From Actinomadura graeca (GTDB lineage: Bacteria; Actinomycetota; Actinomycetes; Streptosporangiales; Streptosporangiaceae), in NCBI RefSeq assembly GCF_019175365.1, contig NZ_CP059572.1:1-64000 (forward strand): a stretch of DNA of 64,000 nt. Direction: 5' to 3'. A model generated the notes under the pieces. The model saw only the letters and a program-made list of their open reading frames with translations. It was not told the DNA's origin and ran no database searches. The stretch's first letter is position 1. Each line of letters begins with the position of its first letter. Made by a program: the position numbers and the translations under genes. Of this stretch, positions 12,354 through 49,593 are shown piece by piece.

Positions 12354-12410
12354 GACCCCACGATGTGGCCCGCCCGCGCGCGGACGGTGGGGGAGATGTG
12401 AAGATTCCGT

Positions 12411-12443
12411 GCAGGTCGCCGCGGAGTCGGCGCAGGTCGCCGC
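12411..12443. promoter_or_regulatory. 12-bp direct repeat pair in the divergent radical SAM / ECF sigma promoter region
   Basis: GCAGGTCGCCGC occurs at 12411-12422 and again at 12432-12443, exactly 21 bp apart (two helical turns), just upstream of a possible -10 hexamer TAGGAT (12445-12450) for the sigma factor gene. This geometry fits two protomers of a regulator on one DNA face. No regulator is known. Confidence 0.4.
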
Positions 12444-12553
12444 ATAGGATGTGGGTTCGCGCACGCGTTCTGTCGGTGGCGCCGCCTACCGTCCGTGGTG
12501 ACGGACGAGCCGCGCCGCCCCGGCGACGCCGCCGAGTGAGGGTGATCACCATC

Positions 12554-33938: not shown

Positions 33939-34730
33939 TCACTCCGAGAGCATCCCGGCGCGGAGCTTCTCCAGCGTGCCCCGCAGCAGCCGCGACACAT
34001 GCATCTGGGACAGCCCCACCTCGTCGGCGATCTGCGTCTGCGTCTTGTTGCCGAAGAACCGCAGCAGCAGGATCCGCCGCTCGCGTTCGGGGAGACCGGC
34101 GATCAGGGGGCGCAGGGCGTGGCCGTCGATGAAGGCGTCCAGCGCCGGGTCGTCGGAGCCGAGGTGCTCGCCGACCGAGCCGTGGTCGCCGTCCGGCGCG
34201 CCGTCCGCCGGGGCCTCCAGCGACAGCGGGCGGTAGGCGTCGCACGCGATGAGCACCTCCACCGCCTCCTCCTCGGTGACGCCCATGAGGGCGGCGACCT
34301 CCCCGGTCGTCGGCGACCGGCCGTGCTCGCGGGTGAAGTCCTGCGCCGTGCGCTGGAGGACGGGACGCAGCTCCTGGAGGCGGCGCGAGACCCGCACCCC
34401 CCACGTCTTGTCCCGGAAGTGCCGCTTCACCTCCCCGGTCACCACCGGGTAGGCGTAGGTGACGAACCGGTCGCCGACGCCGGGGTCGAAGCGGTTGATC
34501 GCCTTGACCAGCCCCAGGTAGGCGACCTGCTGGAGGTCGTCGATCGGCTCGCCGCGGCCGGCGTAGCGGCGCGCCACCCCGCGCACGAGCGGGACGTGCA
34601 GGTCCACGATCCGGGTGCGCAGCCGCTCGCGCCGCGGGTCACCGTCGGAGAGCAGCTTCATCTCCGCGAGCAGCTCCTCGGCCTCGCCGTCCTCGAACCG
34701 GGCCGGCCGGGTCGTCCGCGCCGTCGTCAT
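33939..34730 (-). CDS. SigB/SigF/SigG-family RNA polymerase sigma factor
   Basis: 263 aa group 3 sigma factor. Region 2 includes EPIDDLQQVAYLGLVKAINRFDP and FVTYAYPVVTGEVKRHFRD; region 3 TREHGRSPTTGEVAALMG; region 4 ERRILLLRFFGNKTQTQIADEVGLSQMHVSRLLR. Relatives direct stress and late sporulation genes and are normally held by an anti-sigma kinase, but no such gene is adjacent. ATG 34730 follows GGAGAC. A promoter of its own class lies 53 bp upstream, suggesting autoregulation. Confidence 0.92.
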   Translation of the reverse strand: MTTARTTRPARFEDGEAEELLAEMKLLSDGDPRRERLRTRIVDLHVPLVRGVARRYAGRGEPIDDLQQVAYLGLVKAINRFDPGVGDRFVTYAYPVVTGEVKRHFRDKTWGVRVSRRLQELRPVLQRTAQDFTREHGRSPTTGEVAALMGVTEEEAVEVLIACDAYRPLSLEAPADGAPDGDHGSVGEHLGSDDPALDAFIDGHALRPLIAGLPERERRILLLRFFGNKTQTQIADEVGLSQMHVSRLLRGTLEKLRAGMLSE

Positions 34731-34782
34731 GGGGCGTCTCCTTCGCGGCTGGGGCCGGTACGCGGCGACCGGCCACGTCCCT

Positions 34783-34807
34783 CTACCCGCCGGATCATTG
34801 ATCACAC
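34783..34807 (-). promoter_or_regulatory. Candidate SigB/SigF-type promoter of the sigma gene
   Basis: On the minus strand GTGT-N15-GGGTAG (34807 down to 34783) is close to the GTTT-N14-16-GGGTAT pattern read by this sigma class, 53 bp before the start codon. Confidence 0.45.
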
Positions 34808-34888
34808 CGGGAGCGGCGGAGGGAGCCGCCCCGGCGCTCCCGCCTGCGGAGACCCCGGTGATCCACCCCGCGGGTGATCGGTAGACTG

Positions 34889-34922
34889 TCCGCCGCGTCC
34901 CTCGGGTGAGGGACGCGGCGGA
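34889..34922 (+). promoter_or_regulatory. Strong hairpin in the crcB leader
   Basis: A perfect 15-bp stem (TCCGCCGCGTCCCTC and its complement) with a GGGT loop begins just after a possible -10 hexamer TAGACT (34882-34887). Two smaller GC hairpins follow (GGCGGG-G-CCCGCC and CCCCCGG-T-CCGGGGG, about 34923-34952) before the crcB start at 35016. I could not recognise the conserved core of the fluoride riboswitch that often precedes crcB. Confidence 0.45.
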
Positions 34923-35015
34923 GGCGGGGCCCGCCGCCCCCGGTCCGGGGGAGACCACGGTGACGGCCGCCGGCGGTCCGCGCCGGGACGCGTGTCCCGC
35001 CGGTAGGAGTGAGCC

Positions 35016-35501
35016 ATGCCCGACGCGGCGGCCGACGGCCCCGTCGATCCCGATGTCGACCTGCGCGTCCCGGCGCAGCGCTCCGAGCTGCGCCGCGCCC
35101 CCTGGTCGATCCTCGCGGCGGTGTCGGCGGGCGGGGTCCTCGGAGCGCTGGCCCGCTGGGGGCTGACCAGCGCCTTCCCGTACCGGCCGGCGGAGTTCCC
35201 CTGGTCCGTCTTCTGGATCAACGTCACGGGGTGCCTGGCGATCGGGGTGCTGATGGTGCTGGTCACCGAGGCCGGGCCCGTGCACCGGCTGGTGCGCCCG
35301 TTCCTCGGCGTCGGCGTCCTGGGAGGTTTCACCACGTTCTCCACCTATGTCGTGGACATCCAGCGGGCGGTGGAGGACGATGCCGCCGGTCTGGCGCTCG
35401 CCTATCTGGCAGGGACGCTCGCCGCCGCACTGCTCGCCGTGTTCGCCGGGATGCGGCTGACCCGGCGGTTCGCCCTCCGGCGCCCCCGGGAACGTCCGTG
35501 A
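35016..35501 (+). CDS. crcB: Fluoride channel CrcB/Fluc, subunit 1
   Basis: 161 aa with four membrane spans. GGVLGALARWGL, INVTGCLAIGVL and GGFTTFSTYVVD (the Phe box and Thr/Ser track) are the family's conserved parts. The protein dimerises in antiparallel fashion to export fluoride. A cytosolic N-terminal extension of about 30 residues is acidic. AGGAG precedes the ATG. The gene overlaps the second crcB by 4 bp, so an obligate heterodimer is likely, as in many Gram-positives. Confidence 0.93.
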   Translation: MPDAAADGPVDPDVDLRVPAQRSELRRAPWSILAAVSAGGVLGALARWGLTSAFPYRPAEFPWSVFWINVTGCLAIGVLMVLVTEAGPVHRLVRPFLGVGVLGGFTTFSTYVVDIQRAVEDDAAGLALAYLAGTLAAALLAVFAGMRLTRRFALRRPRERP

Positions 35502-36607: not shown

Positions 36608-37564
36608 TCAGGCGGGGTCGGCGACGACCAGCTCCTGCTCGAACCAGTCGATCGTGCCGCGCAGGCCCTCCTCGACGGTGATCCGCGGGCTCCAGCCGAG
36701 GAGTTCGCGGGCCAGGGTGGTGTCGGGACGCCGGACACGCGGGTCGTCCTCGGGACGCTCGACGAAGCGGATCCGGGACGGTGAGCCGGTCAGCTCGACG
36801 ACCAGCTCCGCGAGATCGGCCATGGAGAGCTCGTACGGGCTGCCGATGTTCACCGGGCCCGGATGGCGGGACATGGCGAGCGCCACGATCCCGCGGACGG
36901 TGTCGTCGACGTGGCAGATCGAGCGCGTCTGCGAGCCGTCCCCCGTCACCGTGAGGTCCTCGCCCGTCAGCGCCTGGCGCAGGAACGTCGGGATGGCGCG
37001 GCCGTCGTCGGGCCGCATCCTCGGCCCGTAGGTGTTGAAGATCCGGACGATCGCCGCGTCGAGGCCCCGGGAATGCCGGAACGCCGAGGTCAGGGCCTCG
37101 CCGAAGCGCTTGGCCTCGTCGTACACGCTGCGCGGCCCCACCGGGTTCACGTTGCCCCAGTACGTCTCCGGCTGCGGGTGGACGAGCGGGTCGCCGTACA
37201 CCTCCGAGGTGGAGGCCAGCACGAACCGGGCGCCCTTCTCCTCGGCCAGCTCCAGCGCGTTGCGGGTGCCCTGGCTGCCGACCTCCAGGGTCTGGATGGG
37301 AAGCCGCAGATAGTCCGCCGGCGACGCCGCCGAGGCGAGGTGGAACACGTAGCCGACCTCGCCCGGCACGTGCACGGGTTCGGTCAGGTCGCGCCTGACG
37401 AACCGGAAGTCCCGCCGCCCGGTGAGGTGCGCGATGTTGCGCGACGTCCCGGTCAGCAGATTGTCCAGGCACACCACCGAGATCCCCCGGGCGAGCAGTG
37501 CCTCGCACAGGTGCGACCCGAGGAAGCCCGAGCCTCCCGTCACCACGGCGCGTCGATGTCTCAT
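36608..37564 (-). CDS. UXS-like NAD-dependent nucleotide-sugar epimerase/decarboxylase
   Basis: 318 aa extended short-chain dehydrogenase. NAD motif TGGSGFLGSHLC, ASTSEVYGDP with the catalytic serine/threonine, and YDEAKRFGE with Tyr-x3-Lys; RIFNTYGPRMRPDDGRAI is the typical UDP-glucuronate decarboxylase substrate region. It may supply UDP-xylose, or act on the heptose made by this operon in place of the missing HldD (inference). It is the last gene of the ten-gene operon, overlapping the GT9 gene by 4 bp. Confidence 0.85.
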   Translation of the reverse strand: MRHRRAVVTGGSGFLGSHLCEALLARGISVVCLDNLLTGTSRNIAHLTGRRDFRFVRRDLTEPVHVPGEVGYVFHLASAASPADYLRLPIQTLEVGSQGTRNALELAEEKGARFVLASTSEVYGDPLVHPQPETYWGNVNPVGPRSVYDEAKRFGEALTSAFRHSRGLDAAIVRIFNTYGPRMRPDDGRAIPTFLRQALTGEDLTVTGDGSQTRSICHVDDTVRGIVALAMSRHPGPVNIGSPYELSMADLAELVVELTGSPSRIRFVERPEDDPRVRRPDTTLARELLGWSPRITVEEGLRGTIDWFEQELVVADPA

Positions 37565-38529
37565 CCTGGTCCCCTCACGGTGTGGGCGAGCGCGCGGCCT
37601 GCCGCCTCGACGGCCTGGCCGGCGGTGATCTCCAGCAGGCCGGGATGCGGTTCGCGGCCGTGCGGGTCGCCGCGCCGCCCGGCCCACAGGACCAGGTGCT
37701 CGGCGCGGTCGGGCGGCCCCCAGCGGCCGGGCGGCGTCGGGCCGAACAGCAGCACCGACGGCGTCCGGAACGCGGTGGCCAGGTGGGCGGGGCCGGTGTC
37801 GCCGCACACCACGAGGCGGGCGCCGGCGACGAGCGCGGCGAGCCGCGGCAGCGGTGTACGGCCCGACAGGTCGGCGCCCGGGTCCAGCCCGGCGAGCTCG
37901 ACGACGCGGCGCGCGATGGCCGCCTCGCCGGGGCCGCCGGTGACGACGACGCGTTCGCCGCCGTCCCGCAGCGCGGCCGCGACGGCCGCGAACCGCTCGG
38001 CCGGCCAGCGCCGCGCGGGGAAGGCCGCCCCCGGGTGGACCACCACGGCGCCGGGCGCGGGGGAGGCGGCCCGGGGCGCCGCCAGGTCCAGGTCGCCGGG
38101 GTCGGCGTGGAACCCGTACGCGCGGACGAGCCGGCACCACCGCGCCACCTCGTGCTCGTCGGGGTCCCAGTCGGGGCCGTCGGCGTGCGGGGCGGCGGTG
38201 CAGGCGAACGCCATCAGCCGGCCCGGTGACAGCGCCGCGAGGACGCGGTGGCTCCGCGGGCCCCGGCCGTGCAGGTTGACCGCCACGTCCACCGGCCCGG
38301 CGGGCGGCAGCGGGGCCAGGCCGTCCGCGGGCAGGACCGCGTCGACGGCGCCGGTGGCGCGGGCCAGCGCCGTCAATGCCTTGGGCGCGGCGAGCGTCAG
38401 CCGGGCCCCGGGCATCCCGCGGCGCACGGCCCGCAGCGCGGGCACGGCGGTCAGCAGGTCGCCCAGGCCGAGGGCGCGCAGGACCACGACGCGGCGCGCC
38501 GTCGTCGGCAGCGGCGCGCTGGTGGTCAC
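37561..38529 (-). CDS. Glycosyltransferase family 9 (heptosyltransferase-type), copy 1
   Basis: 322 aa GT-B protein. The N-terminal RALGLGDLLTAVPALRAV and the C-terminal VVCGDTGPAHLATAFRTPSVLLFGPT are diagnostic for ADP-heptose:LPS heptosyltransferase-like enzymes; VVVHPGAAFPARRWPAERF is the acceptor/donor loop. With GmhA, HldE and a GmhB domain encoded in the same operon, the donor is probably an ADP-heptose. The GTG start overlaps the SDR stop (GTGA). No signal or membrane span: it should act on the inner face of the membrane. Confidence 0.88.
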   Translation of the reverse strand: MTTSAPLPTTARRVVVLRALGLGDLLTAVPALRAVRRGMPGARLTLAAPKALTALARATGAVDAVLPADGLAPLPPAGPVDVAVNLHGRGPRSHRVLAALSPGRLMAFACTAAPHADGPDWDPDEHEVARWCRLVRAYGFHADPGDLDLAAPRAASPAPGAVVVHPGAAFPARRWPAERFAAVAAALRDGGERVVVTGGPGEAAIARRVVELAGLDPGADLSGRTPLPRLAALVAGARLVVCGDTGPAHLATAFRTPSVLLFGPTPPGRWGPPDRAEHLVLWAGRRGDPHGREPHPGLLEITAGQAVEAAGRALAHTVRGPG

Positions 38530-39203
38530 GGCCACGACGGCTCCCGCGACGGGCAGACGACCATCTCGCGGACCTCGCATCCCGCGGGCTGCGCGAGCGC
38601 GAACGCGACCGCCGCCGCGACGTCCGCGGGCCGGTTGAGCTCGGCGTCGGGGCCCGGCCTGTACTGCTCGGTGCGGTCGTCGAAGAAGGCGGTGTCCATC
38701 CCGCCGGGGACCATCAGCGTCACGCCGACCCTCCCGGCCAGCTCGGCGGCGAGCGCCCGGGTGAAGCCGACGACGCCGAACTTGGACGCGCAGTAGGCGG
38801 TGGCGTCGCCGAGCGCCCGCAGCCCGAGCGTGGACGCGACCGTGACGATCCGCCCGCGCGGCTCGTCCTCCAGGTAGGGCAGCGCGGCGCGCACGACGGC
38901 GGCGGTGCCGAGCAGGTTCACCCGCACGACCCGCTCCCAGTCCTCGGCGGGCACGTCCCCCAGGGCGCCGCACGCGTCGATCCCGGCGGCGGTGACGACC
39001 GCGTCCAGCCCCCCGCCGGAGCGGGCCAGCCCGTGCACGGCGCGCTCGGCGCACCCGCGGTCGGCGAGGTCGGCCTGGACGTACTCGACGTCGTCCTTGG
39101 GCGGGTGCAGGTCCAGGACGAGCGGACGTCCCCCGTCCTCGGCGACCCTGCGGGCGATGGCCGCGCCGAGCCCGGAGGCGCCACCGGTGATGAGGACGTT
39201 CAT
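38526..39203 (-). CDS. Short-chain dehydrogenase/reductase
   Basis: 225 aa classical SDR. Cofactor motif TGGASGLGAAIA, NAG-like turn TAAGI, catalytic serine in VASTLG and YCASKFG with Tyr-x3-Lys. The substrate is unknown; within a heptose operon it could oxidise or reduce a sugar carbon. Coupled by 4-bp overlaps to hldE upstream and the GT9 gene downstream. Confidence 0.85.
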   Translation of the reverse strand: MNVLITGGASGLGAAIARRVAEDGGRPLVLDLHPPKDDVEYVQADLADRGCAERAVHGLARSGGGLDAVVTAAGIDACGALGDVPAEDWERVVRVNLLGTAAVVRAALPYLEDEPRGRIVTVASTLGLRALGDATAYCASKFGVVGFTRALAAELAGRVGVTLMVPGGMDTAFFDDRTEQYRPGPDAELNRPADVAAAVAFALAQPAGCEVREMVVCPSREPSWP

Positions 39204-40597
39204 GATGCGGTTCCCTTCGTCGTCGACAGCAGGCGTGAGGTGGAGCGCCCTTCGAGCAGGGGCAGCAGGACCACCTCGCCGCCGTTGGCCCGGACCGTGC
39301 CGGCCTCGGGCAGCGGGGTCCCGGCGTAGTCGGCGCCCTTGACCCACACCTGCGGCCGCAGCCGCTCCAGCAGCGGCGCCGGGGTGTCGTCGTCGAAGAC
39401 CACCGCCGCGTCCACGTCGCTGAGCGCCTCCAGCACCCGGACGCGGTCGGCGGCGGGCGTCACCGGGCGGTCCGGGCCCTTGCGGCGGCGCACCGAGGCG
39501 TCGGAGTTCACGCAGACGATCAGGCAGTCGCCGAGCCGCCGCGCCTGCCGCAGCAGGCTGACGTGCCCGGCGTGCAGCAGGTCGAAGCAGCCGCCGGTCG
39601 CCACGACCGTGCCGCCGGCGCGCCGGGTGCGCTCGGCGAGGCCGAAGGCGTCCTCCCCGCGTTCGGGGACGAGCCGGGCGGTGCCGTTCTCGGTGAGCCG
39701 CGTGGCGAGCGCCGACGCCGCGCCCGCCCGGACGAACTCCGAGGCGCGCCGGACGCCCTCGGTGACCGCCGCGGTGAGCGGTCCGCCGTCGGCGAGCACG
39801 TCCACCGCCCCGACCGCGAAGCCGTCGCCGGCCCCGCACGCGTCGCCCCGCGCGGGTTCGGCCGGGGCGAGGAAGGGCGTGCGCGTCCCGTCGCACAGCA
39901 GGGCGCCCTCGGCGCCGAGGGTGATCGCGACGCCGTCCAGGCCCCACAGCCGGCCGAGATGCCGGCCGCGCCGCCCGGCCGCCGCCAGCCCGGATCCGCC
40001 GATCTCGGCGCCGTCCGCCGCGGCGAGCCGTGCGGCCTCCTCCTCGTTCGGGGTGAGCAGCCGCGTGCCGGGCACCGGCGGCTCCCCCTTCGGGTGCGGG
40101 TCCCACACGACCGGGACGTGGCCGGGCAGGTCGCCCAGCAGGGACCGGACGGCGCGGTGCCGGGTCACGCCGCGCCCGTAGTCGGAGACCAGCACGGCGC
40201 CGGCCCCCGCCACGGCGTCGGTGACGCGCGGACCGACGGGCCCGTCCAGGGCCTGCCCTTCCCCTGTGTCCAGGCGCGCCACCGACTGCTCTCCCGCGCG
40301 GATGCGCAGCTTGCAGGGCGTCCCGCCGTGCAGGTGGAACGCGGCGACCTCCACGTGCCGCTCCAGCATCGCGCGCAGCCGCCGGCCGGGCTCGTCGTCG
40401 GCCAGCGCGGTGACGAGCACCACCTCGCGGCCGGACGCCGCCGCCAGCAGCGCGGCCAGCCCCGCGCCGCCCGGGCGGGGGCGCTCCTCGGCCTGCTCGA
40501 CGACCGGGACCGGCGCGTCCGGGCAGAGCCGGCTGCTGGTGCCGACGATGTCGATGTCGAGCAGGACGTCGCCCACCACGACCAGCGGCGCGGTCAT
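39200..40597 (-). CDS. hldE: Bifunctional heptose-7-phosphate kinase / heptose-1-phosphate adenylyltransferase
   Basis: 465 aa, HldE/RfaE length. The N-terminal PfkB-type kinase domain has VVGDVLLDIDIVG at the start and GDACGAGDGFAVGAV with the catalytic aspartate. From about residue 330 a cytidylyltransferase-like domain carries GGCFDLLHAGHVSLL (the HxGH nucleotide motif) and RVRVLEALSDVDAAVVFDDDTP. It phosphorylates D-glycero-D-manno-heptose 7-phosphate and, after GmhB, makes ADP-heptose. It lies between GmhA and an SDR, each joined by 4-bp overlaps. Confidence 0.9.
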   Translation of the reverse strand: MTAPLVVVGDVLLDIDIVGTSSRLCPDAPVPVVEQAEERPRPGGAGLAALLAAASGREVVLVTALADDEPGRRLRAMLERHVEVAAFHLHGGTPCKLRIRAGEQSVARLDTGEGQALDGPVGPRVTDAVAGAGAVLVSDYGRGVTRHRAVRSLLGDLPGHVPVVWDPHPKGEPPVPGTRLLTPNEEEAARLAAADGAEIGGSGLAAAGRRGRHLGRLWGLDGVAITLGAEGALLCDGTRTPFLAPAEPARGDACGAGDGFAVGAVDVLADGGPLTAAVTEGVRRASEFVRAGAASALATRLTENGTARLVPERGEDAFGLAERTRRAGGTVVATGGCFDLLHAGHVSLLRQARRLGDCLIVCVNSDASVRRRKGPDRPVTPAADRVRVLEALSDVDAAVVFDDDTPAPLLERLRPQVWVKGADYAGTPLPEAGTVRANGGEVVLLPLLEGRSTSRLLSTTKGTAS

Positions 40598-41190
40598 CCC
40601 CCCACCCCCAGGACCTCGTCGATCACTCCGCACAGCAGGTGGAGCGCCGCGAGGTGGATCTCCTGGACGGTCGCGGTGGCCGCGGCGTCCACGGCGATGG
40701 CGTCGTCGCAGGACCCGGTGAGCGGGTTCGGGCCCGGGCCGGTCAGCGCCCAGGCGGCCATCCCCGTGCGCCGCGCCCGGTGCGCCGCCGCGATCACGTT
40801 GGGGCTGCGGCCGCTCGTCGACAGGCAGAGCAGCACGTCGCCGGTGCGGCCGTGCGCCTGCACCTGCCGCGCGAAGACGTCCACCGGGCCGTAGTCGTTG
40901 CCGATGGCGGTGACCGCGGAGGTGTCGGCGTGCAGCGGGATCGCCGACAGCGGCCGCCGGTCGCTCTCGAACCTGCCGGTCAGCTCGGCCGTCAGATGCT
41001 GGGCCTCGGCGGCGCTGCCCCCGTTGCCGCAGGCGAGCAGCCGCCCGCCGGTGCCGAGGACGCGGGCGAGCCGGCGTCCCCACGCGGCGACCGTCGGCAC
41101 GTGCTCGCGGAACCGCAGCGCGGCCTCCGCGAGCGCCTCCAGCCGCTCGTCCTGCGCGGTGAGGACCGGGCTGCGCGCCGGCGCCGTCAC
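40594..41190 (-). CDS. gmhA: Sedoheptulose-7-phosphate isomerase
   Basis: 198 aa SIS-domain protein. ACGNGGSAAEAQHLTAEL, IPLHADTSAVTAIGND, LCLSTSGRSPNVIAA and the C-terminal EIHLAALHLLCGVIDE (with the catalytic histidine) are those of GmhA, the first committed enzyme of heptose synthesis from sedoheptulose 7-phosphate. An N-terminal helix of 45 residues matches the family. GTG start overlapping the preceding glycosyltransferase stop by 4 bp. Confidence 0.92.
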   Translation of the reverse strand: MTAPARSPVLTAQDERLEALAEAALRFREHVPTVAAWGRRLARVLGTGGRLLACGNGGSAAEAQHLTAELTGRFESDRRPLSAIPLHADTSAVTAIGNDYGPVDVFARQVQAHGRTGDVLLCLSTSGRSPNVIAAAHRARRTGMAAWALTGPGPNPLTGSCDDAIAVDAAATATVQEIHLAALHLLCGVIDEVLGVGG

Positions 41191-42401
41191 GCCGCCACCC
41201 CGCTCAGGGCGCCCGCCCGCCGGTAGACGCCGGCGGTGCCGGCGGCCACGCGCGCCCACGAGTAGCGGGCCCGCGCCCGGTCGCGGCCCGCGCGGCCCAT
41301 CGCGGCACGCTTCACCGGGTCGTCCAGCAGCTCCCGGATCGCCGCGGCGGCGGCCCCGGGATCGCGGGGCGGCACGTGCGCGCCGGTGACGCCCGGGACG
41401 ACGGTGTCGAGATGACCGCCGACGCCGCTCGCCACGACGGGCACGCCGCAGGCCATGGCCTCCAGCGGCACCATCCCGAACGGCTCGTACCAGGGCAGCG
41501 TGACGACCGCGCTCGCCGACCGCAGCAGCGGGGCGACCTCGTCGCGGCCGACCCGCCCGAGGAACTCCACGCGGCCGGAGACGCCCGCGTCCCGCGCCAC
41601 CCGCCGCAGCCTGCGCACCTCCGGGTCGCCGTCCAGGTCCGCGCGCGGCGGTCCTCCGGCGACGGCCAGCCGGGCGCCCGGCAGGTACGCCAGCGCCTCG
41701 ATGGCGGTGTCGACGCCCTTGCGCTCGACCAGGCGGGACAGCACCACGAGCGGGCCCGCGTCCGCGCCGTCCCGTCCCCGGCGGGGTGTGAAGAGGCCGA
41801 GGTCGACGCCGCACGGGACGACCGACACGCGGTCGCGCGGGACGCCCAGCGCGGCGAGCTCGGCGACCTCGTCCGCGCACGTCGCGATGACGGCGTCGGC
41901 GCCGCGCCCGAGGGCCCGCTCCAGCCGGACGCGGGAGGCGGGACTGGTGTCGCCGTCGCCCTGGTGGCGGCGCTTGACGCTGCCGAGCGCGTGGTAGGTC
42001 TGCACCACCGGCACATGCCGGGGGCCCGGCGGGCCGGACGCCTGGACGGCGGCGAGCCCGCTCATCCAGAAGTGGGCGTGCGCCACGTCGGGCGGATCGG
42101 CGGACCAGCGCCGCTCCAGGTAGAGGCCGAACGCGTGCATCCAGGGCAGCAGGTCGTCCTTGGCGATGCGCTCGGGCGGGCCCGCCGGGACGTGCTCGAC
42201 GGTCACCCCGGGCGCGAGGCGGACGCGGCGGGGGAGGGCGGGGGCGTCCCGGCGGGTGTAGACGGTGACGTCGTGCCCTTGGCGGCCCAGCTCGGCGGCC
42301 AGCTCGGCGACGAACACGTTCTGCCCGCCGCCGTCCGCCCCGCCGAGCCCGCCGGCGGCGGCCAGCGGGCTGGCGTGCTCGGAGACCATGGCAATCCTCA
42401 T
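41187..42401 (-). CDS. GT-B glycosyltransferase (family 4 type)
   Basis: 404 aa. N-terminal GGLGGADGGGQNVFVAELA and the C-terminal WYEPFGMVPLEAMACGVPVV (E-x7-E motif) are standard for family 4 retaining transferases such as sucrose-phosphate or mannosyl transferases. LSRLVERKGVDTAIEAL is the donor-domain start. Acceptor and donor unknown; presumably it extends the glycan built by this operon. Four-base overlaps on both sides. Confidence 0.9.
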   Translation of the reverse strand: MRIAMVSEHASPLAAAGGLGGADGGGQNVFVAELAAELGRQGHDVTVYTRRDAPALPRRVRLAPGVTVEHVPAGPPERIAKDDLLPWMHAFGLYLERRWSADPPDVAHAHFWMSGLAAVQASGPPGPRHVPVVQTYHALGSVKRRHQGDGDTSPASRVRLERALGRGADAVIATCADEVAELAALGVPRDRVSVVPCGVDLGLFTPRRGRDGADAGPLVVLSRLVERKGVDTAIEALAYLPGARLAVAGGPPRADLDGDPEVRRLRRVARDAGVSGRVEFLGRVGRDEVAPLLRSASAVVTLPWYEPFGMVPLEAMACGVPVVASGVGGHLDTVVPGVTGAHVPPRDPGAAAAAIRELLDDPVKRAAMGRAGRDRARARYSWARVAAGTAGVYRRAGALSGVAA

Positions 42402-43393
42402 CGCGTTACCTCCCAGAGAGTCCGCTGCCAATCGCGCAGGAACCGGGGCAGCCCGTAGCGGTCGACGGCGTGGGCCCGCGCCTCCTTGCCCATCTGGCGG
42501 GCACGCGGCGGGTCGGCGGTCAGCGACCGCGCGGCGTCGGCGAGGGTGCCGGCGCGCGTGGACAGCACCCCCGCCTCCGGCGGCACCGCCTCGACGGCCT
42601 CGGTGGTGGCCAGCGCCACCACCGGCAGGCCGAGCATCATGGCCTCGATGAGCGCGAGGCCGAGCGAGGTCCACCGGTAGGGGTGGACGTAGACGCGGCG
42701 GCGGGCGAGCTCCTCGTGCATCCTCGCCTGCGGCAGGTCCTCGAAGGTCCACAGCGACTCGGGCGCGATGCCGAGCCGTCCGGGGACGTCGGCGACGTTC
42801 ATCCCGAACAGGTCGAGGGGGACGGCCGCGGCCAGCCCGGCGAGCAGGTCGGTGCCCGCGACGCGGCCCCGGCGGAGGGGGTCGTTGATGACGACGCCGG
42901 CGCGGGGCATGTCACCGGTGCAGCGGTAGCCGGGGTCCACGACGCCGTGCTCGATGACCGTGGTCGGCGCCCGCCCGCAGTTCCAGAACAGCTGGTTGAA
43001 GTGGGTGACGTGCACGACGGGGATGTCGGCGCGGTCGTGCAGGAAATGCCGGCTGTCGGGGACGATCTCCTCCGGCCATCCGGCGTCCGCGGGCGTCCGG
43101 CGGGGGGTGTCGTGCTCGACGTACACGGCGGGGACGTCGCGTCCCGGGCGCCGGCCGAGCCACTCCTCGGTGAGGCGCAGCTCGCGCGGCCGCTGCAGGA
43201 CGACCACGTCCACCTCCTCGTCCCGGAGCCGGTCGAAGGGCACCTCGACGGCGCGGCCGGGCCAGGCGAAGGTGTCGGGGCGCCCCCTGCCGTCCGGGCC
43301 GCGGCCGGGCGTGACGGGCACCAGCGTGGTGTGCGGGCCGTGCACGAACGACGTCGCCCACGAGCCGTGCACGTGCCAGAGCAGGACCCTCAT
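42398..43393 (-). CDS. GT-B glycosyltransferase (divergent)
   Basis: 331 aa. The C-terminal half is recognisable as a family 4-like donor domain (YVHPYRWTSLGLALIEAMMLGLPVVA), while the N-terminal half (MRVLLWHVHGSWATSFVHG, VYVEHDTPRRTPADAGWPE, VVHVTHFNQLFWNC) is of a less common type found in actinobacterial glycan operons beside carbamoyltransferases. No membrane segment. ATGA overlaps on both ends keep it inside the operon. Confidence 0.83.
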   Translation of the reverse strand: MRVLLWHVHGSWATSFVHGPHTTLVPVTPGRGPDGRGRPDTFAWPGRAVEVPFDRLRDEEVDVVVLQRPRELRLTEEWLGRRPGRDVPAVYVEHDTPRRTPADAGWPEEIVPDSRHFLHDRADIPVVHVTHFNQLFWNCGRAPTTVIEHGVVDPGYRCTGDMPRAGVVINDPLRRGRVAGTDLLAGLAAAVPLDLFGMNVADVPGRLGIAPESLWTFEDLPQARMHEELARRRVYVHPYRWTSLGLALIEAMMLGLPVVALATTEAVEAVPPEAGVLSTRAGTLADAARSLTADPPRARQMGKEARAHAVDRYGLPRFLRDWQRTLWEVTR

Positions 43394-44409
43394 GCGACCA
43401 CCTCCCCGCCGGGCCCGACGTCGGCCGCGACGATCTCGACGGCCGCGGCGACCTCCTCGGCGCGGACGGACGCCAGGCACGGGTGCCCGTCGACCGGGCA
43501 TTCGCGGGCCCGGCTGTCCTTGCAGGGCGCCTGCTGGTCGCCGAGCAGCGCCAGCGGGACCCCGAACGGCGCCCACCGGGCGGCCGGGACGGTCGGCGCG
43601 AACAGCGACACGACGGGCGTGCCGACGGCGGCGGCCAGGTGCGCGGGACCGGTGTTGCCCGCGACGACGGCGCGCGCGCCCCGCAGCACCGACCCCAGCT
43701 CGGCCAGCGTCGTGCGGCCGCCGAGGTCCAGCCCGTCCTCCCCGGCGACGAGCGCGGTCAGCTCCTTCTCGTCGCCGTGGCCGGTGACGACGACACGGTG
43801 CCCGGCCGCGCCGAGGACGCGCACGGCGTCGGCGCAGTGCGCCGGCGGCCACGCCCGTGCCGGGACGGACGCCCCCGGATGCACCACCACGTACCCGGGC
43901 CCGCCGGTGAGGTGGTCGGTGTCGGGCAGCGGCTCACGGACCCGCAGCCGGGTGTCGGCCGACGCGGGGAACCCCGCGTCCTCGGCGAGCGCGAGCATGC
44001 GCAGCGGCTCGGGCACGTCGCCCTCGGGACGGTGCCGCAGGTCCAGCAGCGAGCCGGGGTAGTCCTCGCTGATGCCGCCGATCCACGGCGTCCCCGCCAG
44101 GCGCAGCAGCAGCGCCAGCGGCAGCGGCGACTGGTGCGACGAGGTGAGGATCAGCGCCCGGTCGAAGCCCGCGAGCGTCCCGGTGAACCGCTCGATGTCC
44201 AGGACGTCGACCGGGTCGGGCTCCGGGTCGATCCACGGCGCGCGCCACTCGATCACCTCGTCCACGCCGGGGAGCAGGTCGGCGGCGGCGCGGCCGCGCG
44301 GCCCGCACAGCAGCACGACCTCCTCGGCGCGCGCGGCCACCGCCCGCACCGCGGGCCCGGCGAGCAGCACGTCGCCGATGTTGTCCTGCCTGGCCACCAG
44401 CACCCTCAC
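43390..44409 (-). CDS. Glycosyltransferase family 9 (heptosyltransferase-type), copy 2
   Basis: 339 aa. RQDNIGDVLLAGPAVRAVAA and VVAGNTGPAHLAAAVGTPVVSLFAPT mark the GT9 family; VVVHPGASVPARAWPP is the partner loop. It is more heptosyltransferase-like than copy 1 in its ARQDNIGD start. A C-terminal cluster of cysteines (CKDSRARECPVDGHPCL) could bind metal and is also found in some LPS heptosyltransferases. GTG start overlapping the GT2-GmhB stop by 4 bp. Confidence 0.9.
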   Translation of the reverse strand: MRVLVARQDNIGDVLLAGPAVRAVAARAEEVVLLCGPRGRAAADLLPGVDEVIEWRAPWIDPEPDPVDVLDIERFTGTLAGFDRALILTSSHQSPLPLALLLRLAGTPWIGGISEDYPGSLLDLRHRPEGDVPEPLRMLALAEDAGFPASADTRLRVREPLPDTDHLTGGPGYVVVHPGASVPARAWPPAHCADAVRVLGAAGHRVVVTGHGDEKELTALVAGEDGLDLGGRTTLAELGSVLRGARAVVAGNTGPAHLAAAVGTPVVSLFAPTVPAARWAPFGVPLALLGDQQAPCKDSRARECPVDGHPCLASVRAEEVAAAVEIVAADVGPGGEVVA

Positions 44410-45950
44410 CGCGACCTCCCTCCGCCGAGCAGCAGGTCCACGGCGGCTTCCAGCGTCGGCGCCGTCTCCGGCGCGCGCGCGATCTCCACTGGCAGGGTCC
44501 GCCCGGTGGGCACGAGGATGCCGCGAGCACCCGCCGCGGCGGCGGCCTCGACGTCGCCGCCGATGTCGCCGATGACGGCGCAGTCGGACGGCCGCGCGCC
44601 CAGCCGCCGCGCCGCGCGCTCGATCATCCCCGGCAGCGGCTTGCGGCACGCGCATCCGTCGTCGCCGTCGTGGGGGCAGAACTCCCACACGTCGACGCGG
44701 CCGAGCAGCTCCTCCACGCGCGCGTTCACGCGCCGCACGTCCCCCGCCGTGATGCGGCCCTTGGCCACGCCCGACTGGTTGGACACCACGCCGATGCGGA
44801 CCCCGTGGCGCCGCAGCCGGTCCAGGGCCCGCCGCGCCCCCGGCATCGGCTCGACCCGCCGGGGGTCGCCGTTGTACGGGACGTCGCGGATGAGGGTGTC
44901 GTCGCGGTCGAAGAGGACCACCCGGGGCCCGGCCCACGGCCGCGCGCGCCGGTGCGCGAGGAGCCCCCGGATCCGGTGCCGGATCGCCACGGGCGGGATC
45001 ACGGCGCTGGTCACCAGCATCAGCGCGACCTCGGCGCCCGTCCGCGGCCCCGGCCGGATCCGCTCCGCGGCGAACCGCGCGGTGAGCGCGGCCCAGACCG
45101 TCCCGGAGACCAGGGCGATCCCTGTCACCCGGCCCCTCCGGGGCGGCCGCCTCCGGGCCGCGACGAGGGCGGGGGGCACGGTGACGAGGGCGGCGAGGCC
45201 CGCGAGCGTGGTGGCGGCGTGGCGGCGCAGCAGGCCCGGGCCCTCACCGGCGCGGGCGCGCCAGGAACGGCCGTGCAGGCGCCACATCAGGACGTCGTCG
45301 GCGTTGCCGGCCTGGGCGCGGACCGAGGCCCACGGACCCGCGGGCCGCACCGGATGGGTGATCTCCCGCGTGCCGCGGACGAGGCGGTGGCCGGCGTCCA
45401 GGACGCGCAGCGCCAGGTCGGCGTCCTCGCGGTAGGCCCGGCGGAACCGTTCGTCGAAGCCGCCCGTCCCGGCGAGGACGCCGCGCCGGTAGGCCATGTC
45501 GGCGGTGATCCAGTCGGCGTCCGCGAGACCGGCGGTGCCCCGCTCCCAGTCGGTGGGGCGCTGCCCGTCCGGCGGCGGGACCCTGACGCGGCCCTTGGAC
45601 CCGGCGACGCCGGGCGGCAGGCCGGCGAGGTCGTCGGCGAGCCGGGCGCACCAGCCGGGGCCGGGGACGACGTCGTCGTCGAGGAAGGCCACCCACTCGG
45701 TCGCGGCGGCGCGCCAGCCGGTGTTCCGCGCGGCGGCGGGACCCCGTCCCCCGGAGCGCAGGACCCGGATGCCCGGCCCGCCGGGCGGCGGCAGCGGCAG
45801 TGGCAGCGGCGCGCCGGGCACGGGACGGTCGTCCACGACGATGATCTCGTGCGGGGCGCCTTCCCCGCCGGCGGCGGACGCGAGGAGGGCGTCGAGCGTC
45901 ACGCGCAGGCTGTCCCTGCCGATCGTCGGGACGACGACGGTGTGGCTCAT
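44406..45950 (-). CDS. Fusion of a GT2 glycosyltransferase and a GmhB-type heptose bisphosphate phosphatase
   Basis: 514 aa. Residues 1-225 are a GT-A transferase (VVPTIGRDSL, HEIIVVDDRP, WVAFLDDDVVPGPGW with the metal DDD, REDADLALRV). Two to three hydrophobic stretches follow (about 245-335). Residues about 345-500 are a HAD phosphatase: VLFDRDDTLIRDVPY, VVSNQSG, and CPHDGDDGCACRKP, the zinc loop typical of D,D-heptose 1,7-bisphosphate phosphatase, then GDIGGDVEAA. The HAD half supplies the GmhB step between the two HldE activities. Its start overlaps the carbamoyltransferase stop. Confidence 0.88.
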   Translation of the reverse strand: MSHTVVVPTIGRDSLRVTLDALLASAAGGEGAPHEIIVVDDRPVPGAPLPLPLPPPGGPGIRVLRSGGRGPAAARNTGWRAAATEWVAFLDDDVVPGPGWCARLADDLAGLPPGVAGSKGRVRVPPPDGQRPTDWERGTAGLADADWITADMAYRRGVLAGTGGFDERFRRAYREDADLALRVLDAGHRLVRGTREITHPVRPAGPWASVRAQAGNADDVLMWRLHGRSWRARAGEGPGLLRRHAATTLAGLAALVTVPPALVAARRRPPRRGRVTGIALVSGTVWAALTARFAAERIRPGPRTGAEVALMLVTSAVIPPVAIRHRIRGLLAHRRARPWAGPRVVLFDRDDTLIRDVPYNGDPRRVEPMPGARRALDRLRRHGVRIGVVSNQSGVAKGRITAGDVRRVNARVEELLGRVDVWEFCPHDGDDGCACRKPLPGMIERAARRLGARPSDCAVIGDIGGDVEAAAAAGARGILVPTGRTLPVEIARAPETAPTLEAAVDLLLGGGRSR

Positions 45951-47584
45951 CGGTGCACCTCCCCGCGGCGCACCACGAAGGGCCCGATCGCCAGCAGGTC
46001 GACCGGCGCGGACCCGAAGCACTCCAGCGCGTCGCGGGGGTCGTCGGCCATGGGACGGCCCGCGGTGTTCAGGCTGGTGTTGACGAGGACCGGCAGGCCG
46101 GTCAGCGCGCGGAACTCCTCCAGGAGCCGCGCCACGAGCGGCTCGTCCGCGGGGGAGACGGTCTGGACGCGCGCCGTGCCGTCCACGTGGACGACCGCGG
46201 GTATCCGTTCCCGCCATCCGGGGCGGACGCGGTGGACGAACAGCATGTACGGGCTCGGGATCGGCCCGTCGAAGATCTCGGGCGCGTGCTCCAGCGCGAC
46301 CATCGGCGCGATCGGGCGGAATTGCTCGCGGCCCTTGACGTCGTTGAGCCGCTCCACGTTGCCGGCGTGGCCGGGATGGGCGAGCAGCGAGCGGTGGCCG
46401 AGCGCGCGCGGCCCGTACTCCGAGCGGCCCTGGAACCAGGCGACGATCTCGTTGCGCGCGAGGGCCCCGGCGACGGTGGCGGCCAGGTCGTCCGGGCGCT
46501 CGTACGGGATCTTCGCGGTGTCCAGGTACCGGGCGATCCGCCGGTCGTCCCACCCCCGTCCGAGGTCGGCGCCGGGCATCGCCGCGAGCGGCCCGCCCCG
46601 CTGCCGGGCGAGGTGCAGGGCGGCGCCGAGCGCCGTCCCCGCGTCACCCGCGGCCGGCTGCACCCAGATCTCGTCGTAGGGACCCGACTCCGCGAGCCGG
46701 GTGTTGGCCACGCAGTTCAGCGCGACGCCGCCGGCGAGCATCAGGCGCCGTGAGCCCGTCCGCCCGCGCAGCCAGGCGGCCAGGTCGAGCAGCACCTCCT
46801 CCAGCCGGGCCTGGACGCTCGCGGCGAGGTCGGCGTGGTCGCGGGTCCATTCGCCGTCCGGCGGGCGGGCCTTGGCGAGCGCGCCCCAGTCGACCGGCCT
46901 GACCGCGAAGCCCCCGTCGCCGGTGGCGCCCACGTGCTCGCGCAGCTCGCCGAGGAAGCGCGGCTCCCCGTAGGAGGCGAGCGCCATGACCTTGTACTCG
47001 TCGCTGGAGCGCAGGAATCCCAGGTGCTCGGTGAGGTCCTCGTACATGAGGCCGAGGGAGTGGGGGAGCCGCTGCGCCTGCAGGACGGTCAGGGCGCCGT
47101 TCTCGTAGGTCCCGGCCAGATGCGAGTGCGACTCGCCGCGGCCGTCTAGGACGAGCACGTCCCCGTCGCCCGGCGACGGCGCCGCGAGTCCCGCGGACGC
47201 GGCGTGCGCGACGTGGTGCGGGACGTACTCGACGATACCGGGGTCCAGCCCGGGCAGCGCCGTGGACAGGAACGCGGGCGCGCGCCGGGCGTACAGCGTC
47301 CGCAGCCGCTCCCACTGCTCGTCGTGCCCGTCCAGGCCGGGCTCGACGAGGTGGGGGTCATAGGAGTAGGCGACGGCGTCGAGGTCGCCGGGTTCCAGCC
47401 CGGCCTCCTCCAGGCACCATCGGGCTGCCCTTTCCGGCAGTTCCCAGGCCGCGAAGGGCACCGGGCGTTTCCCGTGTTTGCGGCGGCTGAAACGTTCCTC
47501 CTCCGCCGCGGCGACGACGACCCCGTCCGCCACGAGGGCGGCTGCCGGGTCATGGAAAATCGCGTTGATTCCGAGCACACGCAT
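45947..47584 (-). CDS. O-carbamoyltransferase (TobZ/NodU family)
   Basis: 545 aa. Kae1-like N-terminal domain: VLGINAIFHDPAAALV, metal site HHVAHAAS, VLVLDGRGE, and LAGGVALNCVANTRL. YrdC-like C-terminal part: FQGRSEYGPRALGHRSLLAHP and LVNTSLNTAGRPM. It transfers carbamoyl from carbamoyl phosphate via carbamoyl-AMP to a hydroxyl, usually on a sugar. It is the first gene of the ten-gene heptose/glycan operon. ATG 47584 fits the family's start; the ribosome site (GGGGCC) is weak. Confidence 0.92.
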   Translation of the reverse strand: MRVLGINAIFHDPAAALVADGVVVAAAEEERFSRRKHGKRPVPFAAWELPERAARWCLEEAGLEPGDLDAVAYSYDPHLVEPGLDGHDEQWERLRTLYARRAPAFLSTALPGLDPGIVEYVPHHVAHAASAGLAAPSPGDGDVLVLDGRGESHSHLAGTYENGALTVLQAQRLPHSLGLMYEDLTEHLGFLRSSDEYKVMALASYGEPRFLGELREHVGATGDGGFAVRPVDWGALAKARPPDGEWTRDHADLAASVQARLEEVLLDLAAWLRGRTGSRRLMLAGGVALNCVANTRLAESGPYDEIWVQPAAGDAGTALGAALHLARQRGGPLAAMPGADLGRGWDDRRIARYLDTAKIPYERPDDLAATVAGALARNEIVAWFQGRSEYGPRALGHRSLLAHPGHAGNVERLNDVKGREQFRPIAPMVALEHAPEIFDGPIPSPYMLFVHRVRPGWRERIPAVVHVDGTARVQTVSPADEPLVARLLEEFRALTGLPVLVNTSLNTAGRPMADDPRDALECFGSAPVDLLAIGPFVVRRGEVHR

Positions 47585-47666
47585 GCGAAGGCCCCGATTC
47601 GGCGCAGCATCAAATGGGGAGCAGATGCCGTCGTCGTAGGCACCGCCCAGGGGTGCTAACCAGAGC

Positions 47667-47686
47667 AAATCCCCTATAGGTGATTT
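47667..47686. promoter_or_regulatory. Near-perfect 20-bp palindrome between the divergent glycan genes
   Basis: AAATCCCC-TATA-GGTGATTT (one mismatch) lies 83 bp from the carbamoyltransferase start and 122 bp from the divergent GT2 start, in the most AT-rich part of the 224-bp gap. It may be an operator for both directions. A looser repeat CCGAGAA ... TTCTCGG (47694-47726) is adjacent. Confidence 0.45.
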
Positions 47687-47808
47687 CCCATTGCCGAGAA
47701 CCGGCTCACTAAACACCGCTTCTCGGAAAGACCGTGGCGAACAAGGCGCGGTGGTACATCTAGACCGTCGCCATACATTTCCTCGCCCGGCTCGGGTACT
47801 GGCCGCCC

Positions 47809-48696
47809 ATGCGTTTCACCGTCGTGGTCATCACCCGGAACCGCAGGCGCGCGCTGCTGGCCGCGCTCGCGCGCCTGCGGTCACTCGCGGAACGGCCTCC
47901 GGTCATCGTGGTGGACAACGCCTCGGAGGACGGCAGCGCCGACGCCGTCGCCGCCCTCTTCCCGGAGTTCCGCCTGATCCGGTCGCGACGCAACCTGGGC
48001 GCCGTCGCGCGCAACGCCGCGGTGGACCACGTCCGCACCCCGTACACGGCCTTCTGCGACGACGACGTCTGGTGGGAGCCGGAGGCGCCCTCCCGCGCCG
48101 CGGACCTCCTGGACGCCCATCCGCGCCTCGCGGTCGTGACCGCCCGGATCCTGGTGGAGCCGGGCGGGCGCGAGGACCCGATCGTGACCGAGCTGCGGCA
48201 CTCGCCCGTCCCGGGCCCGCCGTGGCTGCCCGGGCCGGCGCTCGGCTCCTTCCTGGCCGGGGCGTCCATGGTCCGGGTCGCCGCCTTCCGCGAGGCCGGC
48301 GGGTTCTGTCCCCGGCTGTGGCTCGGCGGCGAGGAGGAGCTCCTCAGCGCCGACCTGATGGCGCTCGGCTGGCACCTCTGCTACGCCGACGACGTGGTCG
48401 TGCACCACGAGCCGTCACCGCGGCGCGAAGCGAGCCTGAGGCGCCGGCACGGAATCCGCAACACACTGTGGTTCACCTGGCTGCGCCGCCCGCTGCCCGC
48501 CGCGGCCCGCCGCACGGCCGGGCTCCTGCGCACGCTGCCCCGCGACCGGGTCACCGCGGGGGCGCTCGCCGAGGCCCTGGCCGGGCTGCCGTGGGTCGCC
48601 CGCGAGCGCCGGACGCTGCCCCGCGACGTCGAGGAGCGGCTCCGCACGCTGGAGGCGTCCCAGCGCCATTCCAAGGCCCGGCGCTATGTCGGATGA
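47809..48696 (+). CDS. Family 2 glycosyltransferase
   Basis: 295 aa soluble GT-A enzyme: VVVITRNRRRALLAAL, PVIVVDNASEDGSADAV, RRNLGAVARNAAVDH, FCDDDVWWEP (metal binding) and FCPRLWLGGEEELLSADL. The tail is arginine-rich without membrane spans. It diverges from the heptose operon and is followed 69 bp later by a clear paralogue, so both probably serve the same glycan. Donor unknown. Confidence 0.88.
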   Translation: MRFTVVVITRNRRRALLAALARLRSLAERPPVIVVDNASEDGSADAVAALFPEFRLIRSRRNLGAVARNAAVDHVRTPYTAFCDDDVWWEPEAPSRAADLLDAHPRLAVVTARILVEPGGREDPIVTELRHSPVPGPPWLPGPALGSFLAGASMVRVAAFREAGGFCPRLWLGGEEELLSADLMALGWHLCYADDVVVHHEPSPRREASLRRRHGIRNTLWFTWLRRPLPAAARRTAGLLRTLPRDRVTAGALAEALAGLPWVARERRTLPRDVEERLRTLEASQRHSKARRYVG

Positions 48697-48765
48697 CGGC
48701 CGGTGCCACCGCGCGGGCGGGACGCCCGCCACAAGGGCGGACCCCCGCCCGGAAGGAGCGGCCCG

Positions 48766-49593
48766 ATGGCCGATGTCACGGTCGTCGTCGCGACCCGGAA
48801 CCGCGCCGACGAGCTGCGCCGCAGCCTCCGCCGGCACCACGCCCCGGTGATCGTCGCCGACAACGCCTCCGCCGACGACACCCCGGAGGTCGCCGAGGCC
48901 GCCGGCGCCGAGGTGGTGCGGCTGCCGCGCAACCTCGGGGCGGCGGCCCGCAACATCGGCGCCGAGCGCGCCGCGACGCCCTACGTCGCCTTCGCCGACG
49001 ACGACTCCTGGTGGGCGCCCGGCGCGCTGGAACGGGCCGTGCGGCTCCTCGGCTCGCACCCGCGGGCGGCGCTGCTGGCCGCGCGCGTGCTCGTCGGCGA
49101 GGACGAGCGGCTGGAGCCGGTGTCCGCGCAGATGGCGCGCGCGCCGCTCGGCCGGCCGGGCGGCCTGCCGGGGCCGGCCGTCCTCGGGTTCCTGGCCTGC
49201 TCGGCCATCGTGCGCCGCGACGCCTTCCTCGGCGTCGGCGGCTTCTCGCCGGTCCTGCACTTCGGAGGCGAGGAGGAACTCCTCGCGCTCGACCTGGCCG
49301 CCGCGGGCTGGGGCCTGGCGTACGTGGACGAGCTCGTCGTCCACCACCACCCCTCCACGGCGAACCGCGACCCGGCGGCCAGACGGCGCCGGGAGGCCCG
49401 CAACCGGCTGCTCACCGCGTGGCTCCGGCGCCCGCTGCCCGCCGTGGCCCGCGCCACCGCCGCCGCCCTCACCACCCGGGACGGGCGGGCGGGGCTCGCC
49501 GACGCCGCCCGCGTCCTGCCCGCGCTGGCCCTGGCCCGCCGGCCGGTCCCCCCGGCCGTCGAGGCGGCGCGGGCGCGGCTGGCGGGCCGCTGA
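48766..49593 (+). CDS. Family 2 glycosyltransferase (paralogue of the preceding gene)
   Basis: 275 aa. It aligns over its length with the gene before it: VVVATRNRADELRRSL, PVIVADNASADDTPEV, PRNLGAAARNIGAE, FADDDSWWAP, LHFGGEEELLALDLAAAGW. The two look like a tandem duplication that has diverged. GGAAGGAG 7 bp before ATG 48766 fixes the start; an upstream ATG at 48703 would add an arginine/glycine-rich stretch and lacks a ribosome site. Confidence 0.88.
   Translation: MADVTVVVATRNRADELRRSLRRHHAPVIVADNASADDTPEVAEAAGAEVVRLPRNLGAAARNIGAERAATPYVAFADDDSWWAPGALERAVRLLGSHPRAALLAARVLVGEDERLEPVSAQMARAPLGRPGGLPGPAVLGFLACSAIVRRDAFLGVGGFSPVLHFGGEEELLALDLAAAGWGLAYVDELVVHHHPSTANRDPAARRRREARNRLLTAWLRRPLPAVARATAAALTTRDGRAGLADAARVLPALALARRPVPPAVEAARARLAGR

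Follow-up and report, generated by a model that had tools for sequence, protein, structure and literature searches.

Orthology of a heptose-pathway and carbamoyltransferase locus of Actinomadura graeca with the Streptomyces cwg operon

Why should a Gram-positive actinomycete carry the genes for a heptose nucleotide, when Gram-positive hosts have no lipopolysaccharide (LPS)? The question is raised by a 64,000-nucleotide stretch of the Actinomadura graeca genome (contig NZ_CP059572.1, positions 1 to 64,000; hereafter the window), in which a preliminary sequence-only reading had described a ten-gene operon for ADP-heptose and a carbamoylated heptose glycan. Sequence comparison shows this locus to be orthologous to the cwg operon of Streptomyces coelicolor. 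It comprises twelve genes, eleven of which cover the twelve cwg functions, the other encoding a short-chain dehydrogenase (SDR). Its likely product is a surface glycan or glycolipid tied to the envelope-stress response.

PMC6767563 describes the cwg operon (sco6179-6190) as a set of 12 genes that is induced by vancomycin, depends in part on sigma-E and is predicted to direct the synthesis of a cell-wall glycan; before 2019, according to the same paper, it was one of only two in vivo sigma-E targets known in Streptomyces. The salt response of cwgA in S. coelicolor is a further literature link to the envelope. Among 392 Streptomyces genomes searched for the published cwg promoter, a 29-bp sigma-E site, one (G553) has an exact match and five more match with one or two mismatches. 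The G553 site ends 147 bp before the start codon of the first gene, EPI, which is the distance printed in Table 1 of PMC6767563. Downstream of it, at locus L059, the genes run EPI-CT-GT2-GmhB-GT9a-GTBa-GT4b-GmhA-HldE-GT9b-GT2d-GT2c, with GmhA and HldE in eighth and ninth place, matching SCO6186 and SCO6187, which are annotated as GmhA and HldE in PMC5839063; all other SCO numbers were assigned by gene order. Each of the twelve functions has an ortholog in the window, at 48-72% protein identity to L059.

The main operon consists of ten minus-strand open reading frames (ORFs) at 36608..47584, all without internal stops and with a third-position GC of 0.94-0.98. All nine junctions are 4-bp overlaps, six ATGA and three GTGA, so that the arrangement first reported is reproduced with its frames intact; family scans likewise return the families first named (Carbam_trans N and C, GT2 with HAD-IIIA/GmhB, two GT9, two GT-B, SIS/GmhA, HldE kinase and nucleotidyltransferase, SDR). 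First in transcription order is CT (45947..47584; cwgB by order; 72% identity to L059), an O-carbamoyltransferase of the NodU/TobZ/NovN/GdmN family, followed by GT2-GmhB (44406..45950), in which a family 2 glycosyltransferase, a hydrophobic linker and a GmhB-type HAD phosphatase occupy the positions of cwgC and cwgD, two separate reading frames in L059 (55% and 62%). Next come GT9a (43390..44409; cwgE by order; 64%), a family 9 glycosyltransferase whose D-[TS]-G-x-x-H motif has Asn in place of Asp; GTBa (42398..43393; cwgF by order; 58%), a GT-B glycosyltransferase (PF00534, 41 bits); and GT4b (41187..42401; cwgG by order; 58%), an MshA-like family 4 glycosyltransferase, also GT-B (PF00534). 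GmhA (40594..41190; cwgH by order; 59%) is a sedoheptulose 7-phosphate isomerase of the SIS family, and HldE (39200..40597; cwgI by order; 54%) joins a heptose 7-phosphate kinase to a heptose 1-phosphate nucleotidyltransferase. They are followed by SDR (38526..39203), present in many relatives but not next to the operon in any Streptomyces locus examined, by GT9b (37561..38529; cwgJ by order; 58%), a second family 9 glycosyltransferase, in which the Asp motif is canonical, and by EPI (36608..37564; cwgA by order; 66%), an extended SDR of UDP-glucuronate decarboxylase (UDP-xylose synthase, UXS) type relocated to the 3′ end of the operon.

These ten genes are there as first described, but two divergent plus-strand genes at 47809-49593, part of the locus by orthology, had been overlooked. 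Both encode family 2 glycosyltransferases: GT2c (47809..48696; PF00535, 75 bits; 65% identity to L059) is the ortholog of the twelfth cwg gene, sco6190 by order, and GT2d (48703..49593; PF00535, 77 bits; 48%; GTG start uncertain) that of the eleventh, sco6189 by order; the two also adjoin in L059. The window and the S. coelicolor operon thus share all twelve functions and the core order from CT to HldE. They differ in the fusion of GT2 with GmhB, in the SDR inserted before GT9b, in EPI being last rather than first, in GT2c and GT2d being divergent rather than last, and in a single-site near-palindrome in the window, where a weak scan found no sigma-E-like site. The window therefore departs from the scheme 'single strand, EPI first, GT2c last', which was not treated as essential because rearrangements are seen in other genera as well. 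Among 14 main-type loci of the same genus, 13 contain all ten genes in identical order and the 14th (L023) starts inside GT2-GmhB at a contig end; a chance assembly of ORFs is ruled out by this conserved order.

The surprise first expressed at a heptose operon in a Gram-positive bacterium is overstated, since the operon already bears a name in S. coelicolor and 59 of the 296 genomes examined in the class have an HldE-type nucleotidyltransferase domain that scores above the curated cut-off. With many genera involved, heptose-nucleotide genes are ordinary for actinomycetes. The gene-order search proposed at the outset finds the set in many actinomycete genera, the matches listed including Streptomyces, Nocardia, Amycolatopsis, Geodermatophilus, Blastococcus, Micromonospora, Nonomuraea and a Mycobacterium; this recurrence rules out a cluster peculiar to the strain. 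The survey of named genomes covered the best 80 of 572 confirmed HldE loci, 54 of the 80 spanning at least 21 kb, and family presence was counted in these 54 full-length loci at ≥42% identity within 10 kb of HldE, so that the counts are lower bounds that miss genes outside the flank. HldE is present in 54, GmhA in at least 53, GT2/GmhB and GT9b in at least 50 each, GT4b and EPI in at least 49 each, GT9a in at least 48, GTBa in at least 47, CT in at least 43, SDR in at least 31, and GT2c and GT2d in at least 27 each. The nearest named loci (L064-L067) are from Actinomadura, with 84-87% HldE identity.

Variants of the locus were also encountered. A second type in Actinomadura (L029, L030 and L184, from G016, G010 and G727; 51-71% identity) forms two divergent blocks without SDR. 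In L045 (G083:C7), G099:C129, G225:C157, G065:C1 and G260:C1, a pair of HldE-type genes is encoded on opposite strands with about 10 kb between them; the second HldE of L045 (39%) is accompanied by a second GT9a-like gene (36%). L094, from a metagenome-assembled genome labelled Chloroflexi bacterium, resembles cwg and has an HldE of 52% identity; it may stem from transfer or from mis-binning.

What does the locus make? The isomerase, kinase, phosphatase and nucleotidyltransferase of the nucleoside diphosphate (NDP)-D-glycero-D-manno-heptose pathway are all present with intact catalytic motifs, which supports by family and motif the complete GmhA/HldE/GmhB pathway first proposed and makes an NDP-heptose the expected donor. 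The solved structures nearest to GmhA are phosphoheptose isomerases. The GmhB domain, nearest to the heptose bisphosphate phosphatase 4pnh, keeps DxD and the Cys/His zinc loop CPHDGDDGCACRKP. The two halves of HldE are nearest to 4e84 (heptose 7-phosphate kinase) and 5x9q (putative cytidylyltransferase), and the protein carries GAGD and HAGH motifs as well as the Arg in LLEGRSTS. A commentary on the work of Tang et al. 2024 (PMC11461863) reports that such enzymes can also make CDP- and UDP-heptose when the fifth position of (F/L)xxGxSTT is Arg. Because HldE has this Arg, its nucleotide use may not be confined to ADP, and of the ADP-heptose first proposed the pathway stands, whereas the choice of ADP is opened to CDP and UDP. 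Across 123 aligned HldE relatives (of 128 distinct), position 5 is Arg in 84, Tyr in 26 and His in 13. No HldD-type 6-epimerase scores above its cut-off in this genome, which is consistent with D-glycero-D-manno-heptose, a sugar for which HldD is not required.

Both family 9 enzymes had been taken for heptosyltransferases, and both match LPS heptosyltransferases among solved structures, GT9a weakly. In GT9b, Asp and His of D-[TS]-G-x-x-H are each found in 104 of 104 sequences (those long enough among 109 distinct) and the N-terminal GD in 95, the other nine having gaps; in GT9a the Asp is replaced by Asn in 115 of 115 aligned sequences (of 117 distinct), counts which in both families include many close relatives and are not independent events. 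The solved GT9 enzymes WaaC, WaaF and 3tov align an Asp with the Asn of GT9a, and in WaaC the Asp of this motif contacts the donor. The heptosyltransferase motifs are thus complete in GT9b and broken at the donor-motif Asp in GT9a, for which the assignment has become doubtful, all the more as GT9a persists without HldE in the species described below.

Could the sugar be something else, GmhA and HldE having drifted to another sugar phosphate? Model scores leave room for this, since most fall below the NCBIfam equivalog cut-offs: 254.8 against 521 for full-length HldE, 109.5 against 345 for its kinase domain, 174 against 276 for GmhA and 103.5 against 178 for the GmhB domain, with the HldE nucleotidyltransferase domain at 179.2 against 181.5 (182.1 in the genome scan). 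Such scores do not guarantee the substrate identity of HldE and GmhA, and the Asn of GT9a and the lack of an HldD above cut-off point the same way. Against a non-heptose sugar stand the co-occurrence of GmhA, both HldE domains and a zinc-loop GmhB with their motifs kept, the invariant Asp of GT9b, and the fact that D-glycero-D-manno-heptose needs no HldD. On balance the drift seems unlikely, and heptose is retained as the predicted sugar.

The remaining enzymes bear on the decoration of the glycan. The TobZ/NodU-type carbamoyltransferase of the sequence-only reading is confirmed in CT by both Carbam_trans domains and by its nearest solved relatives, NovN, 7xb6, TobZ and GdmN; HHxxHA, which we take to be the functional motif of NodU/TobZ O-carbamoyltransferases, is found in 90 of 101 distinct CT sequences. 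The UXS-like epimerase is equally upheld: the closest solved relative of EPI is human UXS1 (329 bits, with the next family at 139), STSEVYGDP occurs in 98 of 100 distinct sequences, and the window EPI carries both SEVYGDP and YxxxK.

With orthology, a complete gene set and intact motifs observed, substrates, order of assembly, product and a stress role in Actinomadura can be proposed. Together, GmhA, HldE with its two domains and the GmhB domain would convert sedoheptulose 7-phosphate into NDP-D-glycero-D-manno-heptose (ADP, possibly also CDP or UDP), and EPI would convert UDP-glucuronate into UDP-xylose. Seven glycosyltransferases (the fusion GT2, GT9a, GTBa, GT4b, GT9b, GT2c and GT2d) would assemble an oligosaccharide on a membrane carrier, and CT would carbamoylate one of its sugars. 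The result would be a glycan or glycolipid of the cell surface, with a link to the envelope-stress response. The cell-surface role is supported because the Streptomyces ortholog is under the envelope-stress factor sigma-E. Of the carbamoylated heptose glycan first suggested, for the cell surface or for secretion, the pathway, the carbamoyltransferase and, by cwg orthology, the surface location have gained support; the heptose product itself is a prediction from sequence. Searches of the open-licence PMC literature turned up neither the identity nor a structure of the cwg product.

Several points weigh against this proposal, besides the modest scores of HldE and GmhA. The 'cell wall' assignment derives from the Streptomyces regulon and from the hydrophobic linker of GT2-GmhB; the hydropathy scan that finds this linker also flags the soluble GmhA, HldE, GTBa and GT9b, so the linker is a suggestive membrane hint only. 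No flippase, polymerase, ligase or transporter is found among the operon genes, nor do these supply a carrier, exporter or anchor. CT was not found near HldE in the eight Geodermatophilus and Blastococcus loci, which implies that carbamoylation is not constant. No sigma-E-type site is found in the 416 bp upstream of CT by a pattern scan that is itself insensitive: the pattern matches L059 only, with nothing upstream of EPI in L060, L062, L063 and L116, nor in L033, L036 and the 59 bp of L039. Since it misses other Streptomyces loci, its negative result upstream of CT says little.

A secreted natural product, namely a heptose- or carbamoyl-sugar antibiotic resembling septacidin, hygromycin B or the bleomycin-type carbamoyl-mannose disaccharide, is another possible destination. 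It draws some support from the antibiotic carbamoyltransferases NovN, TobZ and GdmN among the nearest solved relatives of CT, and from HldE loci around which few cwg genes lie, L090 (Actinomadura sp. HBU206391), L109 (Amycolatopsis xylanica) and L035, which are possibly antibiotic-type or other heptose clusters. Yet no multimodular or scaffold-forming polyketide synthase or nonribosomal peptide synthetase is present in the 20 flanking window ORFs scanned, the only related ORF (69-3704, plus strand; AMP-binding, carrier and hexapeptide-repeat protein) lying some 33 kb off, and conservation across many genera together with sigma-E control of the Streptomyces ortholog fits envelope chemistry better. 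A dedicated antibiotic cluster was rejected on the flanking ORFs and the conservation across genera, and a secreted product in general looks improbable. That ADP-heptose itself is the purpose, as a signal or as an immune agonist through ALPK1, is very improbable, because the pathway is accompanied by seven glycosyltransferases and in most cases by a carbamoyltransferase, and most named holders are soil genera, although Nocardia and a Mycobacterium are included and NDP-heptoses from several kingdoms activate ALPK1 (PMC11461863). The ALPK1 activity singled out at the outset stands, but both this activity and NDP-heptose beyond Gram-negatives are already published there, as the cwg operon itself was already known.

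Control of the locus in Actinomadura may involve the divergent intergenic region (47585-47808). It contains, at 47668..47685 and read on the minus strand, AATCACCTATAGGGGATT, an 18-bp near-palindrome that may serve as an operator or promoter element. The element is conserved when 14 intergenic regions are aligned, and with up to three mismatches allowed it has no second site in the 8.98 Mb genome. At up to two mismatches it occurs in 42 of 60 Actinomadura genomes; site and HldE are both present in 37, HldE only in 8, the site only in 5 and neither in 10. Rfam and tRNA scans of the window gave no matches. A sigma-70 family factor gene with regions 2, 3 and 4 (33939-35285, minus strand) lies near the 3′ end of the operon and adjoins it in several Actinomadura loci, eroded ones included. 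Farther off, the window encodes a SnoaL-like domain fused to a sigma factor (12365-13531, plus strand) and a cyanophycin-synthetase-like protein (21770-24409, minus strand).

Which of the genes are indispensable? In the 60 Actinomadura genomes HldE is present in 45, GT9a in 53, SDR in 43, GTBa in 47 and CT in 46. The 15 genomes without HldE comprise G703 and G721, cut at contig ends where HldE scraps show the loss to be an assembly artefact, G015, which is unclear, six with eroded loci and six that appear empty (G017, G022, G698, G702, G706 and G712, in which none of HldE, GT9a, SDR, GTBa and CT was found). Eroded loci, found through operator, GT9a and SDR searches, keep GT9a and SDR (G005), GT9a, SDR and scraps (G013), GT9a, GT4b and SDR (G694), GT9a and a CT scrap (G019), GT9a (G704), or SDR and an HldE scrap (G726); a seventh, partly eroded locus (G725) keeps GT9a, GT4b, HldE and SDR. 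Across the seven, GT9a is thus retained in six (five without HldE), SDR in five, GT4b in two and HldE in one, and CT, GT2-GmhB, GmhA, GTBa, GT9b and EPI are found at most as scraps in these stretches. Control searches found GTBa and CT in neither the seven eroded nor the six empty genomes; the genome-wide searches there did not extend to GmhA, GT2-GmhB, GT4b, GT9b, EPI or GT2c/d. An assembly artefact is ruled out for the six HldE-less eroded genomes and G725, as the relics are contiguous and G005, G726 and G725 are single-contig genomes. In five of the six loci keeping GT9a, the near-palindrome lies 86-220 bp upstream of it, with two or three mismatches to the symmetrised form; none was found in G019.

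The GT9a tree scatters the eroded genomes, G005 grouping with G725 and G013, G694, G019 and G704 standing apart, which suggests about five separate erosions that kept GT9a; some supports are low (0.14 for G694 with G012, 0.72 for G704). Single changes in GT9a number 47 nonsynonymous to 117 synonymous on eroded branches and 32:90 on sister branches (unconstrained expectation 2.5:1), those in SDR 35:57 and 20:37 (expectation 2.6:1), where the sisters include G725, itself eroded, and terminal branches partly predate deletion, the counts mixing both periods. G694 looks relaxed, at 12:16 for GT9a and 9:9 for SDR. Overall, both genes look constrained despite the lost heptose genes. With these genes gone, GT9a in the eroded species cannot be fed by NDP-heptose from this operon, and its retention under substitution counts resembling purifying selection suggests that it is not tied to heptose. 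Read together with the Asn motif, this makes it probable that GT9a takes a donor different from the heptose of the operon, possibly in partnership with SDR.

A broader reading would then be that an LPS-core-like oligosaccharide with heptose, xylose and carbamoyl groups is widespread on the Gram-positive envelopes of actinomycetes, that GT9a, which runs one of its steps, changed its donor (Asp to Asn) and works without heptose, together with SDR, and that, in Actinomadura at least, heptosylation and carbamoylation are decorations that come later or can be dispensed with. If true, this would explain why about five lineages lost most operon genes and retained GT9a, in most cases downstream of the operator that belongs to the operon. 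The reading is less likely than not, and was made somewhat less likely by a single-contig Streptomyces genome, G450 (L061, G450:C1:6067800-6086000), which keeps the cwg promoter with one mismatch and, in the stretch examined, only GT2, GT4b and scraps, GT9a being found nowhere in the genome (E 1e-10), against the view of GT9a as core. Five further loci (L027, L037, L078, L080 and L100) have heptose genes without a nearby GT9a, and all five genomes hold a GT9a just outside or away from the stretch, in a genome search of such loci that left out L134. Three findings are new here, with no literature search aimed at them: the series of deletions, the Asn that never varies in GT9a, and the near-palindrome with its single site. 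The Arg of the HldE motif is a further new observation. The deletion series suggests a use of their own for GT9a and SDR in Actinomadura, with CT, GmhA, GmhB, GTBa, GT9b and EPI going together; eroded species are natural knockouts which, with a twelve-function set common to many genera, help make cwg, a sigma-E target, tractable. A heptose glycan on Gram-positive envelopes, if true, would also extend the list of potential producers of ALPK1 agonists.

Finally, the locus can be set beside other known systems. It shares families and motifs with the Gram-negative ADP-heptose and LPS inner-core system (GmhA, HldE, GmhB, WaaC/WaaF), including the WaaC/WaaF Asp motif in GT9b, but differs in having no HldD above cut-off, in the Asn of GT9a, and in its extra GT2 and GT4 enzymes and UXS. 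The LPS core of Pseudomonas aeruginosa contains a 7-O-carbamoyl heptose (WapO), and the product proposed here would likewise combine heptose and carbamoyl groups; that system belongs to Gram-negative LPS, and the likeness is one of description. Septacidin-type antibiotic pathways, named in PMC11461863, also use an NDP-heptose in an actinomycete and are again likened by description; they lead to a secreted small molecule, whereas the window locus has many glycosyltransferases and is broadly conserved.

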